Positions 2,573 through 17,628 of a DNA stretch of 62,268 nucleotides are shown here, in pieces; position 1 is the stretch's first letter; every line of letters begins with the position of its first letter. The notes below the pieces were generated by a model. The model saw only the letters and a list, made by a program, of their open reading frames with translations. It searched no databases and had not been told where the DNA came from. Source of the DNA: a virus; IMG/VR virus record IMGVR_UViG_3300012927_000093, positions 1 through 62,268 of that record; one strand, 5' to 3'. The translations under genes were made by a program, and so were the position numbers.

Positions 2573-3250
2573 ATGCATCCACCAGCTACTCCAACCAACT
2601 GTCTCGGCTGCGGCGTTGACTCACGCGAACTGTCGCGCTGGTACGGCCGTGGTTACTGTCCGCGATGTGGAGTGAGACGCAATCGGCTTGGACTCCCGAT
2701 GAGCCCTTCGTTAAAAATCCCGTTATCCGAAAGGGTGCGGATTTCGACTGAAGGAAAGCACCCGGCCGCGTGCTGGCCTTGGTTCGGGTACGTAGATGCT
2801 AAGGGGTACGCCAACACGGGGAAGGGCCCCGCTCCGCGTTTCGTGTGGCTTCGGCTGGTTGGGCCGATCCCTCCGGGATTGGAGATCGATCATCTGTGCC
2901 ATACGGAAGATCTAGACTGCGAGGGTGGAGTGACGTGCCAGCACAGGCAATGCGTGAACCCGGCTCACCTGCGTCTAGTTACCAAGCCAGTGAACCTTGC
3001 TCGCCGGAAGCGCGTCACGCGCCCCACCTGCAGCACCGGAAAGCACCCCAAAACCGACCAGTTCGGGTATCGAAACAGCCGCAACGTTTGGCATTGCAGC
3101 CCCTGTAAGAACCGTCAGTCCCGGGATTCAAAGCGTCGCAAGGCAGCCGAGCGCAGGAGCAGCGCAGGTCAGGCCCAGCTACCCAGCGACACCACCTGTG
3201 CGTACCGAGTCCCGATAGCCCAGTCCTCTTCGACGATGTTGCATGAGTAG
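2573..3250 (+). CDS. HNH homing-type endonuclease
   Basis: 225 residues. Two N-terminal CxxC pairs (CLGCG, CPRCG) precede a HNH core in which EIDHLCHTEDLDC and CVNPAHLRLVT give the H...N...H residues, with a further Cys-rich basic tail (CSTGKHPKTDQFGYRN). This arrangement is that of free-standing phage HNH homing endonucleases. It sits on the plus strand inside a minus-strand fibre operon, and its last 82 bases overlap the 3' end of the gene at 3169-3615, consistent with a selfish insertion. Two further HNH genes occur at 5561 and 39131. Confidence 0.85.
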   Translation: MHPPATPTNCLGCGVDSRELSRWYGRGYCPRCGVRRNRLGLPMSPSLKIPLSERVRISTEGKHPAACWPWFGYVDAKGYANTGKGPAPRFVWLRLVGPIPPGLEIDHLCHTEDLDCEGGVTCQHRQCVNPAHLRLVTKPVNLARRKRVTRPTCSTGKHPKTDQFGYRNSRNVWHCSPCKNRQSRDSKRRKAAERRSSAGQAQLPSDTTCAYRVPIAQSSSTMLHE

Positions 3251-3615
3251 TACATCGCGTACTCAGTCGTTTCCGAGACGGTGATCACGCCTGCCATGTT
3301 GACGACGTCCAGGCCGCCGGCGACTGGGCGCCCCATGTGCCCCATCACGTCGCTGCCAGCATCAGGGCCTACTGCCGTAGGCGCGAACGCGAATGTCAAC
3401 TCGGTATCCGCTACAGACGAAAACATCCGCATGGACGTGGTGAATAGCCACATTCCGGCAGGGAAAGAGAACAAAGTTCTGTATCCATGCACGTTATTGC
3501 TGATGGACGGAGCGCCAGTTCCGCTGGAGTGCGCAGTGTAGTCATACGGTAGCTGCAGACTTGTGTTCTCTTGCGCTACGCTCGCGCCACCGTAGACTTC
3601 GAGGTTCAGAGTCAT
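3169..3615 (-). CDS. Hypothetical virion protein
   Basis: 148 residues beginning MTLNLEVYGGASVAQENTSL, beta-rich, with a segment on physical surface pattern (FSFPAGMWLFTTSMRMF) resembling C1q/TNF-like or fibre-tip domains. It belongs to the minus-strand fibre cluster. Its last 27 codons overlap the convergent HNH gene; either the HNH insertion created or extended the C-terminus, or the HNH protein is read through into this gene. Function unknown. Confidence 0.65.
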   Translation of the reverse strand: MTLNLEVYGGASVAQENTSLQLPYDYTAHSSGTGAPSISNNVHGYRTLFSFPAGMWLFTTSMRMFSSVADTELTFAFAPTAVGPDAGSDVMGHMGRPVAGGLDVVNMAGVITVSETTEYAMYYSCNIVEEDWAIGTRYAQVVSLGSWA

Positions 3616-4772: not shown

Positions 4773-5129
4773 TCAGCTCAAGAAGATTTGGCCAGTAAAC
4801 GGGAACCCGAAAGTTATCTCGGTGATCCCGGCGGATGGGTGACTCACTGTCGCGTATTCGACCGTCAATGCCGGCGTGTTGGTGTCCAGGCACAAGATTC
4901 CAGCTGGCTTGAATGGAAGGTTGTGGATCATCTGCACCAAGCTTTGATTCGTAACCGAAGTTGCGAACCCCAGCGCTGAGCCGGTGTCGCCCGGTGGCCC
5001 CTGGGGCCCCTGTGGACCTGGAGGCCCCTGCACCGGCACAACCACTACGCCGGAGCTGGGGGGCGCCATGGCGATGCTCGGCGTCACGGGGGGCCCGATG
5101 GTGATAGAGCCGGGCAGGTTAATTGGCAT
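4773..5129 (-). CDS. Collagen-like fibre protein
   Basis: 118 residues. Residues about 34-47 form a short Gly-X-Y collagen-like stretch (GPPGPQGPQGPPGDTG) between a Pro-rich N-terminus and a small beta C-terminal domain. Phage collagen-like segments trimerise and act as shafts. Its first bases overlap by 11 nt the stop of the upstream gene, indicating coupled translation. Likely a trimeric tail or head fibre. Confidence 0.75.
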   Translation of the reverse strand: MPINLPGSITIGPPVTPSIAMAPPSSGVVVVPVQGPPGPQGPQGPPGDTGSALGFATSVTNQSLVQMIHNLPFKPAGILCLDTNTPALTVEYATVSHPSAGITEITFGFPFTGQIFLS

Positions 5130-9387: not shown

Positions 9388-10005
9388 TTAGGGGCCGGTC
9401 GGCTTGAGACTGATGAGCTTGGCGAAGACGATGGTCTGCTGCAGGTAGTTGTGCTGCGCGGTGTCCAGATCCCCCGGGCCGCAGGTGATGGCCACGAGTT
9501 CCGCGCCGTCCGCGTCGCCGTACACGGCTTTAGTGGGGAACGCCGACTTGGCGATGATCAGAACTTTGGACACCTTGAACGTCGCTGTCTGCGCATCGGA
9601 GCGCAGCACGGAGAGTTCGGCGCCCACCTTCACCTTCGCCAGGTCGGCGAAAGCGCCCTGCACGTGGTTGGCGTTGATGTGCCCGACGATCACCGCACGT
9701 TCTACTGCCTGCGGGTATTTTCCGACAGCACTGTCGCCGGGCACCGGACTTTGCCGGAACCAACCGATCATCCGGGGCGACGACAGCGGTGGCACACCGA
9801 GTGTGTGATCGGGGTTGAGATCGACCTGCATGGTCAGGTTGTCGTCCAACTCCAGGGACGGGATCTTGACCGAGGTGATCGTCACGCTCGACGTCACCGG
9901 CGGCGGCGCGGTTCCCGGCGAGGTCTCGTTCGGCGGCGCACTCGGCGCCGCTGGATGCGAACAGGCCGCCAGGATCAGGACGAAGACGACCAGTCCGGTC
10001 CGCAG
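9388..10005 (-). CDS. Sortase-like lipoprotein (degenerate class E/F type)
   Basis: The frame shows a signal peptide with lipobox (VFVLILAACSHP), a Pro-rich linker, and a sortase domain: AVIVGHINANHVQGAF holds the catalytic-type His and LVAITCGPGD the catalytic-type Cys. In class E/F sortases an Arg about 12-13 residues after Cys completes the site; here no Arg follows the Cys at all (LDTAQHNYLQQTIVF), so activity is doubtful. Start uncertain: no ATG/GTG/TTG lies near; a CTG at 10005 fits the signal peptide, while a GTG at 10179 would cover the small gene at 9975-10172. Confidence 0.7.
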   Translation of the reverse strand: MRTGLVVFVLILAACSHPAAPSAPPNETSPGTAPPPVTSSVTITSVKIPSLELDDNLTMQVDLNPDHTLGVPPLSSPRMIGWFRQSPVPGDSAVGKYPQAVERAVIVGHINANHVQGAFADLAKVKVGAELSVLRSDAQTATFKVSKVLIIAKSAFPTKAVYGDADGAELVAITCGPGDLDTAQHNYLQQTIVFAKLISLKPTGP

Positions 10006-10172
10006 GCCTCGGCTCTTGCTTTCACGAGGGCGGCGATGAGTTCTTGGACGGACTCCGCCGACAACAAGACTGAAGGGCCGTCCGTGCGGTTGGGTCCGCG
10101 CATGGTCACGAGAACGAGACCACCCACGGACCCAACCAGCACCGAACCGTTGCCGCCGTCGCGGGCCGGCAT
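9975..10172 (-). CDS. Small hypothetical protein
   Basis: 65 residues: MPARDGGNGSVLVGSVGG, two strands, then a helix SVQELIAALVKARAEA. This is the style of small actinophage proteins and reads better than the overlapping sortase frame over the same bases, so I take it as real. It ends inside the 5' part of the sortase-like gene, which would allow coupled translation. No function recognised. Confidence 0.5.
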   Translation of the reverse strand: MPARDGGNGSVLVGSVGGLVLVTMRGPNRTDGPSVLLSAESVQELIAALVKARAEACGPDWSSSS

Positions 10173-10183
10173 TGGTCACTAGC

Positions 10184-11215
10184 TCAGACGGCTCGGTTGT
10201 GCGCCAGCACGAACGCCGCGCTGTCGCCACCGGTCTGCACCGGACCCGACGGAACCGGACCACTGGCCACCGGAGCCGGCGACGCCAGCGGAGCCGGGTT
10301 GGCCGCCGCGTCGTTGCCACTCGGAGCCGGGGCCGGGTCCGCGTAGGCCACCGGCGCTTGCACGATGACGACGGGCGGGTTGGGGTCGTTGCAGATGGTG
10401 CGCAGCTGCCCCAGGGTCCGGTTCCAGTCACCGAAACGCTGACCGTCCAGGTTGCGTAGCCGCAGCCAGTCGTTGCGCTCCGACAAGCTCAGCAGGTCCA
10501 GGTTGGTGCCGTTGAAGCCCTGGTGCAGCTGGCCCAGGCGCAAACGCAGGCCGCCCCAGTCGCGGCGAACACCGTTCAGCTCGTCGCCGAAACGCTGTGC
10601 GTCGGCGCGGAAGGTGACGCACTGACCATCGTTGCTGACGCTGACGCCGCCGTTGCTACAGCCCTGGTGCAGCGCAAACCAACGGGCCTGCGGGTCTCCA
10701 CCAAGCAGGCGGAGAATCCCATCACGGTGTACGCCGTTGCGGAGCAGGAACGTGTTGTAGTCACCGTAACCGCAGGTATCCAAGGACAGGTTCTGGTCCA
10801 GCCACAACTGGTGGCCGAAGGTGCGCGGTCCACCCCACGGTCCACCCCACGGGAATCCCGGGTTGCCGCAACGGACGTTGTTTCCAGAGCAACCCACAAT
10901 CGGGCCAGGTGCGCAGTGGTCACCAACACGGTGAGTGCCAAGCGGGCAGAAGATCTGCGGGTCGTTGAGGTTGCCGCCAATGCCCAGGTGCACGCCAAGG
11001 TCGATCGAGTCAGAGCACGAGGTAGCCGCCGCGAGGATGGTGCACGGTGCCAGCTGGTGTCCGTTCGGCAGGGTCGGAATGCACGTGGCACCAGCGATAC
11101 CGGTGCATGAAACATCGTGACCCCTACTCGGAGCGGCCGAAGCCACCCCCGCAGTTACAACGAGACCGAGCACTACCGCCAGGGCGGCAAAGCCGGCGAC
11201 CAGCAGTCGTCGCAT
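10184..11215 (-). CDS. Secreted Cys-rich protein
   Basis: 343 residues. A Sec signal peptide (MRRLLVAGFAALAVVLGL to about residue 28, AXA site near ASAA) precedes about ten cysteines in an N-terminal Gly/Cys-rich region, a Gly-Trp-Pro repeat (FPWGGPWGG), a middle domain rich in Leu, Arg and Asp, and a Pro/Ala/Ser-rich C-terminus. No LPxTG motif or terminal membrane helix is seen, so it is not an obvious substrate for the neighbouring sortase-like protein. The start has an AGGAGG ribosome site and a 13-bp palindrome directly upstream. Such secreted proteins are rare in phages; a host-surface role in lysogeny or adhesion is possible. Confidence 0.75.
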   Translation of the reverse strand: MRRLLVAGFAALAVVLGLVVTAGVASAAPSRGHDVSCTGIAGATCIPTLPNGHQLAPCTILAAATSCSDSIDLGVHLGIGGNLNDPQIFCPLGTHRVGDHCAPGPIVGCSGNNVRCGNPGFPWGGPWGGPRTFGHQLWLDQNLSLDTCGYGDYNTFLLRNGVHRDGILRLLGGDPQARWFALHQGCSNGGVSVSNDGQCVTFRADAQRFGDELNGVRRDWGGLRLRLGQLHQGFNGTNLDLLSLSERNDWLRLRNLDGQRFGDWNRTLGQLRTICNDPNPPVVIVQAPVAYADPAPAPSGNDAAANPAPLASPAPVASGPVPSGPVQTGGDSAAFVLAHNRAV

Positions 11216-12353: not shown

Positions 12354-12520
12354 TCCGACTCCCCCGCTTCCTGCTCGTGTTCGATCTGCTTGGTTCGTTC
12401 GTTGAGCAGAACCGCGTACCGCTCGAGCTTTTTCACCGCCGCGTCCAACTCTTGAATTACGTCCTTGGACTCGACCAGCAGGCGGTCCATCTTCGGGGTG
12501 GGGCGCCACAGCGGACTCAC
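12350..12520 (-). CDS. Small coiled-coil protein
   Basis: A 56-residue frame starts GTG at 12520, overlapping the upstream stop by four bases, and ends TGA overlapping the next GTG by four bases. The sequence MDRLLVESKDVIQELDAAV and onward is a strong heptad helix. The clean overlap at both ends makes the gene convincing although it is short. Function unknown. Confidence 0.65.
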   Translation of the reverse strand: MSPLWRPTPKMDRLLVESKDVIQELDAAVKKLERYAVLLNERTKQIEHEQEAGESE

Positions 12521-12792
12521 GGGTCATCACCGCCGCGACGGGTGGCACGCAGGAACGACGCCAGCGCATCGGTCATTCGAGTCATGACCGGGATGACCTG
12601 CTGCTGGAACATCTCGTTCTGCTTACGTAGCTCGCCCTCAAGGGTGTCGTTGCGTTCGCGTTCGCGCTTGAGGTTGTCGCGGGCGTCCTTGTACATCACC
12701 CACGCCCACCACAGCGCGATCGCCGCCAGAGCGCCGCCGGGCCCGTACTGCAGCAGCACCGAAGACGGGTCGGTGGCGTCGGCGAGGGTCAC
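12517..12792 (-). CDS. Membrane protein with coiled coil, holin-like
   Basis: 91 residues: a short N-terminus, one membrane helix (GALAAIALWWAWVMYK, about 19-34), a charged coiled coil (DNLKRERERNDTLEGELRKQ) and an amphipathic tail. The layout of one helix plus charged coil resembles small phage holin or spanin-like membrane proteins. It overlaps both neighbours by four bases. A holin function is possible, because another r1t-type holin domain sits in the lysin fusion nearby. Confidence 0.65.
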   Translation of the reverse strand: MTLADATDPSSVLLQYGPGGALAAIALWWAWVMYKDARDNLKRERERNDTLEGELRKQNEMFQQQVIPVMTRMTDALASFLRATRRGGDDP

Positions 12793-13094
12793 GGAAGGAC
12801 GATGGGAGGGCTAGGCGTGTTGTGCTTGGCCATCACCAGCACGGTGTTGCCAGACACGAACGCCCACGCGGTGTCGCCGGCCTTGGGCACGTAGTGCGGT
12901 GCGTAGGTGGCATCGGGCACTACGCCGGTGGGCAGGTTGATAGAGCAGGTGTTCGCTGATGGAGTGACCGAGTTGACGGTGATTTGGCGCATTTCGACCT
13001 TGGGCTGCGGAGGCACCCGGGTCACCATCTGCCGGCCCTGGGAAATGTAGGTTCGGGCCAGGTCGGCAACCGACGGGTCTTCGATCGGGGGCAT
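12789..13094 (-). CDS. Hypothetical small tail protein
   Basis: 101 residues. The pattern (VEMRQITVNSVTPSANTCS, then a region ending GDTAWAFVSGNTVLVMAKHN) looks like a small beta-barrel of the kind found after hub proteins in actinophage tail operons. It follows the hub gene by eight bases. Probably virion-associated; no motif proves it. Confidence 0.65.
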   Translation of the reverse strand: MPPIEDPSVADLARTYISQGRQMVTRVPPQPKVEMRQITVNSVTPSANTCSINLPTGVVPDATYAPHYVPKAGDTAWAFVSGNTVLVMAKHNTPSPPIVLP

Positions 13095-13102
13095 CGTGGC
13101 TC

Positions 13103-15109
13103 CTATCCCTGTGCGGCGGACTGGCGGTAGCAGACCAGCACTTGGGCCTGCGCCTGGCCGATCGGCGTCGACATCGAGTTAATCTTGAATGTGCCCTGGA
13201 TGATCTGCTGGCCGTTGTAGGTACGAGTCACGGTGATCACGTCGCCGGGCTCCAGGGCCGGGTTCGGCACCATCGTGATCTGCACGGTCTCCGAGGCGCC
13301 CTTGACCACCAGCAGCAACGCATCGGCCGCTTGCTGCGCCTGCGCCGTCGTGGTGATCATGGCGCTGATGAATGTCGTGGTCACGATGTTGTACGGACCG
13401 AGGTAGTACGTCGGCGAGCTCGGGTCCGCATCGAACGCGACCGCCGAAACGGGCACCGTGTTCGACGTCGACTCGCCGCTGACGATCACATAGTTGTAGG
13501 TCGTCGAGTCCGAGATCGACCGGGTATAGGACACCATCACCGGGTTAGCCGCGTCACTGACCGTCCACACCGACGGGGTCAGCGCCGGGTCGGCGACGGG
13601 CTTGACCTTGAACGTGCCGAGGGGGTCGAAGTACGCCCGGGACCCGATCGCGGTGCCCATGTCCTGGATGTCCTGCCATGGGTCCGCGCCCTGGCTGGTG
13701 CCGAACAGTAGCCGCTCCGCTGTCACCTCAGTGGATGCCACGTCCGAGGTGATGCCCGGTAGTCGGTTCTGCGCGATCTCCAACATCGCGGTGGCGTAGT
13801 TCGTGTTCGTCGGAACGTAGAAGATGCTGGTCCAGGTGTTCCGAGAGATCGCGTAAGACAGGTCGATCCCGGACACCACCAGCGACAACCCGCCACCGGT
13901 GGAGCTGCCACCGGAACCGGTGACACCGTTGCCTCCGCCACCACCGCCTGAGCTGCCGGTGCCGGATGGGCCGCCGGTCTCGGTGATGTCCACCTGTGTA
14001 ATCAGGAAGGTGCCGAGGGCGACCAGCTCGTTATAGGAAGTGTCCTCGGCGACGTCGGTTCGCAGCGTCATGAAGAACGGGCTCGTGTCGGTCGCCAGAA
14101 GCCGCGTCATGGTGGCCCTGGTCAGCACAACTGGGGTGGTCGCATCTCCGCGCAGCAGACCGGGCACAGCTCCGCCGTTGATAGCGGTCTGCCAGCTCAC
14201 GCCGCCGTCCAGGCTCGTCTCGACCAGCACCGCCGAGCCGGCGGCGGGTGTGGAGGCCGACCAGCTGACCCGCGAAGCGCTGACCGGGTTGTTGGTGAGG
14301 TACACCGGCGGCCGGATCGATACCGCCAGCAGCGGGTTGTAGACCTCGAGCGCGGTGTCGGTCTCAAGCGCTGGCGTGATGATGTTGGTCATGCTCGGCA
14401 GCAGCGCCGAGGTGACCGCGACGCCGGCGTCAGTCTCTAGCGCGGGGGTCAGTGTCGATGCAATGTCCGGAGCCTGCTGGATGGACATTGAGCAGGCCAC
14501 CCAGCCGGATGCTGAGACAGATTCCGGGGTGGGGATCGTCCCAGAGGAGCCCGAAGAGGTGAAGCTCTTGCCGGAAAACCCGAGCGCCCAAGTGTTGGTG
14601 CCCGTTGTTCCGACCGCGCTCCCTAGCGACAGGTAGCCGGGAGCGGTGCCCACCGACTGATTCACTGAAGTGAAAGACCCTGTGGTGTAGACCAGGACCG
14701 CGCCGCCGGCTGTCACGGTAACGCTTGGGGCGGTCGCGGTCACCCCTGAGCCGTTGCCAGTAGAGATGGCGATGGTCTGGCCCAGGTTGGCATTGCGAAT
14801 GGTGATAGCCCAGTACCAGGCCACGGGCGGAGCGCCAGCGAGCGTCAGCGTGCCGTCGACCGAGGTTGAGGTCAGTACCTGCCGGAACACGCCTATCCGC
14901 GTGGTCTGCGCGGTGATGTCGCTATCTACGGGCTTGGTCCACCCAGGGAACGAGCTGAACGAGTTGGTGTCGGCGATCATGACCATGACGATGCGCAGGT
15001 CACCCGGCTCAAAATTGGAGCCAACTGTCAGCGGAACCGTCACGGCAGTGTTGCCCGTGTCGGCCGTCATGACCGTTTCTATATCAAGGAACTGAAGCGG
15101 GCTAGCCAC
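13103..15109 (-). CDS. Tail hub protein, C-terminal DUF5047-type part with N-terminal insert
   Basis: 668 residues. Residues about 1-210 are an adhesin-like beta module; 215-260 has two PALETD repeats; 265-355 looks like a discoidin-type beta domain. From LVALGTFLI (362-370) the sequence follows the second part of DUF5047-type actinophage hub/minor tail proteins: a Gly-rich loop, YVIVSGESTSN, ITTTAQAQQAADALL and VPNPALEPGDVITV. The first hub domain is missing here and is found in the separate gene at 15578-15958. The protein likely forms part of the baseplate hub. Confidence 0.8.
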   Translation of the reverse strand: MASPLQFLDIETVMTADTGNTAVTVPLTVGSNFEPGDLRIVMVMIADTNSFSSFPGWTKPVDSDITAQTTRIGVFRQVLTSTSVDGTLTLAGAPPVAWYWAITIRNANLGQTIAISTGNGSGVTATAPSVTVTAGGAVLVYTTGSFTSVNQSVGTAPGYLSLGSAVGTTGTNTWALGFSGKSFTSSGSSGTIPTPESVSASGWVACSMSIQQAPDIASTLTPALETDAGVAVTSALLPSMTNIITPALETDTALEVYNPLLAVSIRPPVYLTNNPVSASRVSWSASTPAAGSAVLVETSLDGGVSWQTAINGGAVPGLLRGDATTPVVLTRATMTRLLATDTSPFFMTLRTDVAEDTSYNELVALGTFLITQVDITETGGPSGTGSSGGGGGGNGVTGSGGSSTGGGLSLVVSGIDLSYAISRNTWTSIFYVPTNTNYATAMLEIAQNRLPGITSDVASTEVTAERLLFGTSQGADPWQDIQDMGTAIGSRAYFDPLGTFKVKPVADPALTPSVWTVSDAANPVMVSYTRSISDSTTYNYVIVSGESTSNTVPVSAVAFDADPSSPTYYLGPYNIVTTTFISAMITTTAQAQQAADALLLVVKGASETVQITMVPNPALEPGDVITVTRTYNGQQIIQGTFKINSMSTPIGQAQAQVLVCYRQSAAQG

Positions 15110-15112
15110 AAT

Positions 15113-15574
15113 CTAGCTCGCGGTGGCGACGGCGATGCCGGTACTGATGGTGACGTTATAGTCCTGCCCGTTAGTGGTCACCGATACGTCACAGTTGAAC
15201 AGCGGAATGGTCTGGGAGTCGGTAGCCCCCGACGTGGGCTGGTAGCAGATCAGGAACTTCGCCAGCGTGTTGTTCGTGGCCCCGCCCGCGGACAGCCAGC
15301 TCACATTGGCGATAGACACGGTGTTCTTGTGGTTCGTCGTGTCCGGAGTGACGGTGATGCCCGACGTGATGATCTTCCGGGCGTAGTTGGTAAACGTCGC
15401 CTCAAGGCTGCCGCCAGCCAGCAGCGACGACAACGATGTGTAGTTTCGCAAGGTCGCGTCGGCCTGCAAGCTCGCCGACTGCAGCAGCACAATGGCGAGT
15501 CGATCCGTGCCCAGGGCTAGATCGCAGTACCGGACGCCTCGACCAGTAGCGCCGGTGAACCAGAAGTTCGCCAT
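15113..15574 (-). CDS. Hypothetical tail-tip protein
   Basis: 153 residues beginning MANFWFTGATGRGVRYCDLA, beta-rich, without enzyme motifs. It lies between the two halves of the split hub, three bases from one and three bases from the other, so it is translated with them. It may be an extra domain of the hub that is made as its own protein. Confidence 0.7.
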   Translation of the reverse strand: MANFWFTGATGRGVRYCDLALGTDRLAIVLLQSASLQADATLRNYTSLSSLLAGGSLEATFTNYARKIITSGITVTPDTTNHKNTVSIANVSWLSAGGATNNTLAKFLICYQPTSGATDSQTIPLFNCDVSVTTNGQDYNVTISTGIAVATAS

Positions 15575-15577
15575 CGG

Positions 15578-15958
15578 TCAGGGTCCAATCCGGAGATAGC
15601 CAGTAGTTCCGTCAGCAACCGCGCCGATATTCGTGCCCTGCGCGAAACCACCGTTCGCCCCGGTGTCGAGTTGCGTGATGGTCTGTGAACCGGGGATGCG
15701 CACCCCGCGCTTGACCTGCATGCGCGTGCCGAACGGGGCCAGGACCGAAGCCATGTCGACCGGGGTCAGCGTGCCGGTCGGGTCAGCAACCGAAATGGTG
15801 CACGACGACATCTGCGCGGCCGTGGCGTCCGAGGTGACTTGGCCGTCGAAGCCCTCAAGCTGCAGTACGACTTTGCCGTTCTGGATGATGTCGACTTCCG
15901 AGACAGACTCGTGCGTGGTCTGCACGAGCTGCTGGAATGCGTCGGAGGTGCCTTGCAC
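15578..15958 (-). CDS. Tail hub protein, N-terminal DUF5047-type domain
   Basis: 126 residues from GTG 15958, which has an AGGAGG ribosome site. The body (ESVSEVDIIQNGKVVLQLEG, DGQVTSDATAAQMSSCTISV, APFGTRMQVKRGVRIPG) corresponds to the first domain of DUF5047 hub proteins, which normally continues directly into a VPLGTF strand in one polypeptide. Here that continuation is in the gene at 13103-15109. A new C-terminal tail (GTNIGAVADGTTGYLRIGP) ends the protein. Confidence 0.75.
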   Translation of the reverse strand: MQGTSDAFQQLVQTTHESVSEVDIIQNGKVVLQLEGFDGQVTSDATAAQMSSCTISVADPTGTLTPVDMASVLAPFGTRMQVKRGVRIPGSQTITQLDTGANGGFAQGTNIGAVADGTTGYLRIGP

Positions 15959-15966
15959 AATGCCTC

Positions 15967-17628
15967 CTAGGAAGTGATCGGGGGAGCGTCCACTTCCGTG
16001 TAAGAAATAGTCATGATCCGGTACTTGGTTTTCGTTCCCGACGGATGGAGATCCCATGTGTAAGCGGCATCCGAGCCGATCGCCCCAGGGCCGAACGAGA
16101 CGTAGTGCTGCCTGCCGGTCGGGTACATGAACAGCAGAATCTGGTTCGCTCCGTCGATGGCCTCGAACGCGTTGAACGCGCCAGCGAAGCGGCCCTCGTC
16201 GAACACCAGCGTCAAAGTGCCGTTGCGCCCGTAGTACGGGCCCATCACCTTGACCTGGTTCACGTGGTTCTGCCCGACCGGCGGCTGCGCGATTACGTCG
16301 AACGTGCCCTCTGACCGCCGCTTGACCACCTGGTCACCGAGGTAGGCGACGGGCAGCTTGCAGTTCATCAGCGGGTTGAGCGGGTTGACCAGGAAGAACC
16401 CGTTGCGGGTCGGCGTGACGTCGATGGTGTTCGACCACGCCGACGCTGGCACCGCAACCCCGGAGACCGTGTCGTAGGCCAGCACCCGGTAACGGGATGC
16501 GATGTTCGACGGCGCCTCGTAGTCGTAGGCGGTGATCGTCGACATGCCGGACGCCGCGACCTGCGCGTAGCCCCGCACTGGACCCCATGCCAGGTGAGCC
16601 GGGTCGCGGGACACCTGAAGTGCAAATGACGTCGTCACCGGCGAGCTAGAAGACGGGGCGAAGGTGGTGATCACCCAGTTGTTGACCGAGTCGAACACCG
16701 CCGTGAGCAGCGACGCGACCGGAGCGCCAGACATGCCCTGAGTCCACGTGGTCGAGGCCGCCGCCGAGGTGAACGTGCCGAGACCGGCCCAGGACTGCTG
16801 CACCTGCACGTACGCCGACCACGACCCGTTGGTGAGATCGACATCGGCGGTCCACTGCTGGATCTCCGAAAAGATCCAGCCCTGCGTCGAGTCCGTCGGG
16901 GTGGACACGAACGGCGCGAACCCGACCGCCGCGACCTGAGCGGCGGAATAGATCGCCACCTGGAACGCCTGCTGCGCATCGGACTGGGTGTTGGAATACA
17001 CCCAGGTCACCGTCGGGCGCGCGGTCGTGGTGATGGTGCCGGTCGGGCCGGTAACGCTCAGCGTCGACTGCACGGAATACGTCACGGTGACGTACAGCTC
17101 GGAGATCCGCGACGGGTTGCCGGCCAGGTCATCACGCCCGACGGGCAGCGTGAAGTTCGTGAATGACGCCGTCGTCCAGGGGTTGCCGAAAGGGTCGGTG
17201 ACCTGGGTCGGCAGGTTCTGGATCGTGTAGGTCGCCGTCACCGGCTGCTGCGGCACGGTCCAGCCGAACAGGAACTCCAGGAACCCCAGCACGATCGTCG
17301 TGATGATGTTCTGGGGCCTCGAGCAGCGGAACCAGCCACAGTGCACCGGCTGCGGAGCCGGGGACACCGTCTGCAGCACCCGCACCTGCGCGCCGACGGA
17401 GAAGATCTGCGCCCCCGCCGGGATCGACGGGGCGGCGAACCCCACCTCCACCCGAGACGATGGAGTGCGGCACCGGCTGGTGAACTGCACATAGCTGGTG
17501 TCGACGTTGTCCGACCACGCCGTGTGCACCGCACCCGCGCCAACCAGCGTGATGCCGCCGCTGACGCCCTGCACCGTCGAGTTCGGGCGCATCACGATCG
17601 TCTGATAGCTGGGGGGCGGTGAGGTCAT
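15967..17628 (-). CDS. Minor tail protein
   Basis: 553 residues. The N-terminus resembles actinophage minor tail proteins with a membrane-like Phe/Leu segment (IVLGFLEFLFGW) in an otherwise beta-rich domain; the middle has two fibronectin-like domains (TLSVTGPTGTITTTARPTVTW, and later RDPAHLAWGPVRGYAQV) and the C-terminus has a distal-tail type pattern (LTLVFDEGRFAGAFNAFEAI). It overlaps the tape measure by four bases, as the distal tail/minor tail gene usually does. Confidence 0.85.
   Translation of the reverse strand: MTSPPPSYQTIVMRPNSTVQGVSGGITLVGAGAVHTAWSDNVDTSYVQFTSRCRTPSSRVEVGFAAPSIPAGAQIFSVGAQVRVLQTVSPAPQPVHCGWFRCSRPQNIITTIVLGFLEFLFGWTVPQQPVTATYTIQNLPTQVTDPFGNPWTTASFTNFTLPVGRDDLAGNPSRISELYVTVTYSVQSTLSVTGPTGTITTTARPTVTWVYSNTQSDAQQAFQVAIYSAAQVAAVGFAPFVSTPTDSTQGWIFSEIQQWTADVDLTNGSWSAYVQVQQSWAGLGTFTSAAASTTWTQGMSGAPVASLLTAVFDSVNNWVITTFAPSSSSPVTTSFALQVSRDPAHLAWGPVRGYAQVAASGMSTITAYDYEAPSNIASRYRVLAYDTVSGVAVPASAWSNTIDVTPTRNGFFLVNPLNPLMNCKLPVAYLGDQVVKRRSEGTFDVIAQPPVGQNHVNQVKVMGPYYGRNGTLTLVFDEGRFAGAFNAFEAIDGANQILLFMYPTGRQHYVSFGPGAIGSDAAYTWDLHPSGTKTKYRIMTISYTEVDAPPITS

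Follow-up and report, generated by a model that had tools for sequence, protein, structure and literature searches.

Can the tail hub of a phage, which is one chain in the intact members of its family, be encoded by two genes with other genes lying between them? This question is raised by a viral DNA of 62,268 nucleotides (IMG/VR record IMGVR_UViG_3300012927_000093; the whole of this stretch is called the window), in which an earlier note, made from the sequence alone, had described a DUF5047 tail hub split into two genes with inserted modules.

A tail hub encoded by two genes

The three ORFs concerned were all found on the minus strand as first described: gene N (15578..15958; 126 aa, GTG start at 15958), gene M (15113..15574; 153 aa) and gene C (13103..15109; 668 aa, GTG start at 15109). 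The ORFs, the PHROG profiles and our own profiles agree with the split as described, including its coordinates, lengths and both motifs: 15578–15958 and 13103–15109 encode the first ~90 residues and the remainder of one gp27/DUF5047-type hub. The hub part of N comprises residues 1–90 (15689–15958, minus strand) and ends with RGVRIPG (residues 84–90), after which a conserved tail follows (residues 91–126; 15581–15688) that ends in LRIGP; the hub resumes in C with ELVALGTFLI (LVALGTFLI at residue 362), and residues 362–668 of C (13106..14026) form its C-terminal half. As proposed in the note, both halves were compared with one profile, and they match adjoining stretches of the same tail protein family: positions 283–383 of phrog_1887 match N residues 32–126 (E 1e-3) and positions 384–645 match C residues 361–653 (E 9e-43), with a further match of PF13550 to the C hub half (E 5e-6). 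The Pfam DUF5047 model reached only E 0.047 on N, short of the cut-off, and gave no match above cut-off on the window's own record or on the controls; PHROG and our own profiles were therefore employed. The latter drew solely on halves of intact hubs (111 and 122) and, when run on the six-frame translation of the window, matched N (E 3.8e-17) and C (E 1.1e-58) as the sole ORFs, with one match per half; thus, the window holds no second hub detectable by these profiles. Of the features expected for a gp27-like/DUF5047 (phrog_1887) hub, the strands up to RGV(R) are present in N and the region from xxVPLGxFR to the end is present in C, whilst the single polypeptide is absent: the halves are separate genes in 19 contigs, and in differing frames. 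Within the C hub half, alignments also revealed a Gly-rich loop of ~30 residues (C residues 378–407; 13889..13978, minus strand) that is kept in window-type split hubs and missing from the three intact hubs aligned alongside.

The note describes the family as one chain of about 400 residues, which agrees with the ~360–390 aa of the intact members, found as single genes in phages of Rhodococcus, Streptomyces, Brevibacterium, Arthrobacter and Actinoplanes. REQ1 gp80 (Rhodococcus), VWB gp49 (Streptomyces), Samy and AbbeyMikolon gp18 are homologous to the split hub across both halves. These one-chain DUF5047/phrog_1887 hubs occupy the same gene position as the split hub, after the tape measure and Dit-position genes; they differ in being a single gene with an insert-free hairpin (~105 loci), whereas the split hub takes up two genes. 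The alignment of intact hubs reads unbroken through RGV.(2-5).E.VPLG.FR, and the cut lies between RGVR and ELVPLG, in a beta-hairpin loop within the first hub domain and not, as the note had placed it, at a domain boundary. That N, M and C have a common reading frame in the window is due to chance.

Gene N is preceded by a Shine-Dalgarno sequence (AGGAGG, 15963..15968, minus strand), and its true start was assigned from the ATG of the related locus L003 and the Shine-Dalgarno position. Neither M nor C exhibits a clear Shine-Dalgarno sequence in the window, each starting 3 nt past the preceding stop. Across relatives, C starts 0–4 nt past the M stop in 13 of 14 loci, with L145 having an extra gene at this point; M and C are probably translationally coupled.

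The genes between the halves and structure models

The 153-residue protein and the ~360 adhesin-like and discoidin-like residues noted between the halves are indeed present, as gene M and C residues 1–361. M belongs to phrog_26662 (E 3e-25), homologs of which mostly sit away from such hubs, for example in Hiyaavirus and Pam4. Gene C is a chimera that encodes, in order, a variable adhesin (residues 1–210; 14480..15109), two ALETD-type repeats identified by alignment (residues 211–256; 14342..14479), a beta-sandwich of jelly-roll/discoidin-like type that leads into the hub hairpin (residues 257–361; 14027..14341) and the C-terminal half of the hub. Alignment searches with the jelly-roll against PDB sequences, Pfam and NCBIfam returned chance-level matches only. 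The adhesin is a separate gene in L162, L163, L164, L169 and L179, and in L162, L169 and L179 the ETD repeat contains both the end of the adhesin gene and the start of the C gene. The layout is N-M-[adhesin-C] in the group of the window, N-M-X-[adhesin-C] in L145, N-adhesin-X-M-C in L162, L169 and L179, N-X-X-adhesin-M in L164 and N-X-X-M-adhesin-C in L163 (brackets mark one gene), and L162 carries a sulfotransferase-like gene between the halves. Thus, the cut point is constant while gene content and order vary, and a single captured module, as had been envisaged, gives way to a slot with changing contents.

The structure prediction of N together with C that had been suggested was performed with AlphaFold on the three window ORFs tethered as one 951-aa chain, with stops read as Gly. 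In this model the hub parts are confident, M and the N tail are poorly predicted, and residues 16–947 pair in structural alignment with complete one-chain hubs: the Milano hub (Z 24.8, 309/326 aligned), Mu gp44 (Z 23.1) and T4 gp27 (Z 18.6). N and C together hence model as a complete gp27-like hub fold; because a single tethered chain was modelled and the alignment took in intact hubs, this is a statement about the joint fold and no test of association between the free proteins. A second AlphaFold model covered the L019 homolog from the N tail through the jelly-roll, with pLDDT values mostly of 75–95 for M, mostly of 70–85 for the adhesin (predicted as two beta-sandwiches) and of about 80–90 for the C-encoded sandwich. 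Fold matches of the adhesin and M are middling (Z 5–7.4), with that of M being to the fibre-tail adaptor of phage GP4 (8jou_a; Z 7.4, 114/136 aligned); the C sandwich resembles the phi812 baseplate protein 9eui_Q (Z 6.8, 2.5 Å, 94 aligned, 21% identity) and F17 lectin domains (Z 6.0), and parts of this model also match numerous small phage proteins that are uncharacterised. These predicted folds weakly suggest that M, adhesin and sandwich are adhesion parts of the tail tip. The N tail, which is conserved, without cysteine and similar to a first jelly-roll strand, had a pLDDT under 50 in both models. AlphaFold left it unplaced twice; its motif, position and selection suggest that it may supply the opening strand of the jelly-roll that C continues.

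Distribution, descent and selection of the split form

The note had also called for a search for intact and split forms elsewhere, and both were found. We used the C half to gather 80 IMG/VR and 43 GTDB loci, which were sorted with the N and C profiles; searches with alignments of the jelly-roll and of M supplied extra split loci. In the intact loci (~105) both halves lie in one ORF, 0–18 nt apart, apart from a few exceptions in which the profile match starts late; in the split loci 1.66–2.27 kb separate the halves, and a small second class of frame-shifted hubs was also identified. A separate N gene is found in 19 contigs including the window, 16 of which exhibit both full halves. These contigs come from metagenomes and two GTDB MAGs, and the 18 contigs other than the window, which belong to related soil viruses, display the same architecture at 40–95% protein identity. 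Searched with the N half, the 50,697 phage records yield intact hubs only, and therefore no cultured phage with the split form was found.

A tree of 125 hub sequences groups the 16 split rows into one clade (SH-aLRT 99–100; 0/500 shuffles), with no re-fused hub found inside it, so that one split event is the simplest reading of the tree. Between the window and L002, dN/dS is 0.09 for the N hub part, 0.02 for the N tail, 0.18 for M, 0.09 for the jelly-roll and 0.12 for the C hub part; for hub halves and N tail the values span 0.02–0.2, with strong purifying selection acting on both hub halves. It is the adhesin that is hypervariable: between L002 and the window it is 38.5% identical while hub halves, N tail and jelly-roll are 93–97% and M 73% identical, and between L022 and L097 it is 40% identical against 93–98% for the remainder. 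Overall, adhesins with 38–40% identity occur between hub genes otherwise 86–98% identical.

According to the note, a receptor-binding insert was captured and then separated by new starts and stops. The part of this that holds is that one ancestral hub came apart into two pieces that now flank adhesin modules; the capture-first order is one of the possible orders, since no intact hub bearing the insert was found. In phages, IMG/VR and GTDB no intact hub with this insert turned up: tblastn with hub and jelly-roll joined retrieved insert-free hubs only, and the IMG/VR search with the jelly-roll alignment retrieved split loci only.

Two observations concern one-chain hubs. Orf21 of Gordonia phage GTE7 (L015, 4906–6642) appears to carry ~195 extra in-frame residues at the same hairpin, in a single chain; its N-half match is weak and the extra part is without a Pfam match, and the hub hairpin may be a general insertion site. 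The frame-shifted loci (L102, identical to L039, at 5001; L106 at 4929; L055, L073, L078 and L082, each at 4827) hold a one-gene-type hub in two overlapping frames, and all have the identical sequence GACGATCCAGGGAAAAGCCT with the canonical −1 slippery heptamer G GGA AAA. A −1 slip there yields ..TIQGKSLE.., as in the in-frame relatives with GGC AAG AGC; the zero-frame product ends shortly past the hub N half in L102 and L055 and continues in others. Judged by these motifs, the tail hub gene in these loci looks like a case of programmed −1 frameshifting, at two to three places in the tree.

Alternative explanations and a proposed assembly

Several explanations would leave the hub a single chain or the split without function. 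Splicing of the insert as a group I or II intron or an intein would restore a one-chain hub, and a spliced intron is known from a minor tail gene of mycobacteriophage cluster J (PMC3706429); against this, Rfam gave no match in the window or the region, neither at gathering thresholds nor at E<1, 360 insert residues form an in-frame fusion with the C half, purifying selection acts on N tail, M and jelly-roll, the window insert holds no endonuclease gene and the cassette is rearranged among relatives, all of which makes splicing very improbable. Of an intein no sign was found. Stop-codon read-through linking the three ORFs would fit the common frame of N, M and C in the window, L001, L019, L021, L097 and L147, but frames differ in eight loci (L002, L003, L018, L020, L022, L023, L096 and L145), TGA, TAG and TAA all serve as stops among relatives, and L003 exhibits an ATGA overlap; as stops and frames vary in this way, the genes are separate and a conserved read-through is excluded, leaving read-through the slightest of chances. 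That the window is a single metagenomic contig might point to an artefact of sequencing or assembly, or to a decayed pseudogene; we regard this as scarcely credible given the 18 further contigs of like architecture, dN/dS values well under 1 everywhere except the adhesin and the lack of a second, intact hub in the window.

A homing endonuclease could instead have made the split, with the receptor-binding genes as passengers whose position in the hub is without function. An HNH gene does follow the N stop directly in L097, on the opposite strand (2738–3367, minus; PF13392, E 2e-4), and the nrdA reductase gene in pieces of Aeromonas phage Aeh1 provides a precedent, cited in PMC3322345. Aeh1 NrdA and the hub are alike in that one protein is in two pieces with another gene between, although the intruder is a homing endonuclease in the former and consists of structural receptor-binding genes in the latter. 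Since the HNH gene occurs in only 1 of ~19 loci, most loci have the adhesin joined in frame to the C half and structural-type genes make up the cassette in nearly every case, we consider this origin unlikely.

We think it probable that N and C make up one gp27-like hub subunit, held together non-covalently, that presents the cassette between its halves. N and C would be co-translated from one operon stretch and would assemble with the RGVRI strand of N paired to the LVALGTFLI strand of C, as in the hairpin of a one-chain hub; the fibre-adaptor-like M and the adhesin fused to C would then form the receptor-binding part of the tail tip, hanging from the hub at this hairpin via a beta-sandwich stalk. 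Lying between conserved half-genes, the cassette could be exchanged by recombination with the hub left undamaged. More tentatively, and with some doubt on our part, the gap may be a dedicated exchange slot: a core tail gene permanently broken for the swapping of whole cassettes, with adhesin, adaptor and accessory genes replaced through recombination in the flanking hub halves, and with these halves and the jelly-roll completed by the N tail locking the cassette onto the tail tip.

Hubs in two genes are known from lambda gpL/gpJ and RcGTA gp13/gp15, each pair dividing what in T5 is a one-chain hub, with further tail-tip genes lying in between (lambda L-K-I-J, RcGTA gp13/14/15) and an insertion domain common to both proteins (PMC10721106). 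The window likewise exhibits a hub in two genes with genes between, yet the lambda cut falls between HDI and HDII, inside the insertion domain, whereas here it falls inside the first hub domain; lambda gpL has an Fe-S domain, whilst the N tail lacks cysteine; and, unlike in lambda and RcGTA, the hub belongs to the gp27/DUF5047 type of actinobacteriophages and its gap holds a hypervariable adhesin. It is thus an independent variant of this type of split, with another cut point and lineage, and not a member of it. Extra domains in the N-terminal part of a gp27-like hub also occur in cyanophage A-1(L) gp15 (PMC10966104), which is one chain with lysozyme and endoglucanase inserts, as opposed to two genes and adhesins. 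Beyond lambda and gene transfer agents, a hub would have been split on at least one occasion, and the split form has persisted through long divergence. The trimeric gp27-type hub, located beneath the distal tail protein, is a conserved core of tails and injection machines, for which two chains cut inside a beta-barrel probably suffice; its assembly becomes open to direct test, and host-range prediction would benefit from a site where host-binding parts appear to be swapped among phages of soil actinobacteria.

The genes flanking the hub complete the picture of the locus. Upstream, in Dit position, lies a 553-aa tail protein without a family match (15967..17628, minus strand), which adjoins N in L001–L003; downstream, a 101-aa protein (12789..13094, minus strand) is kept after C and has a sub-threshold match to the Phage_base_V OB-fold (PF04717, E 0.063). 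Just past the tail genes, a 91-aa ORF (12517–12792, minus strand) shows a weak match to an Rz-like spanin (phrog_214, E 5e-4). Further downstream, a sortase-domain protein (9388–10431, minus strand; PF04203, E 9.6e-11) exhibits a lipoprotein-like segment, and a similar ORF is found in L003 (13492–14640).
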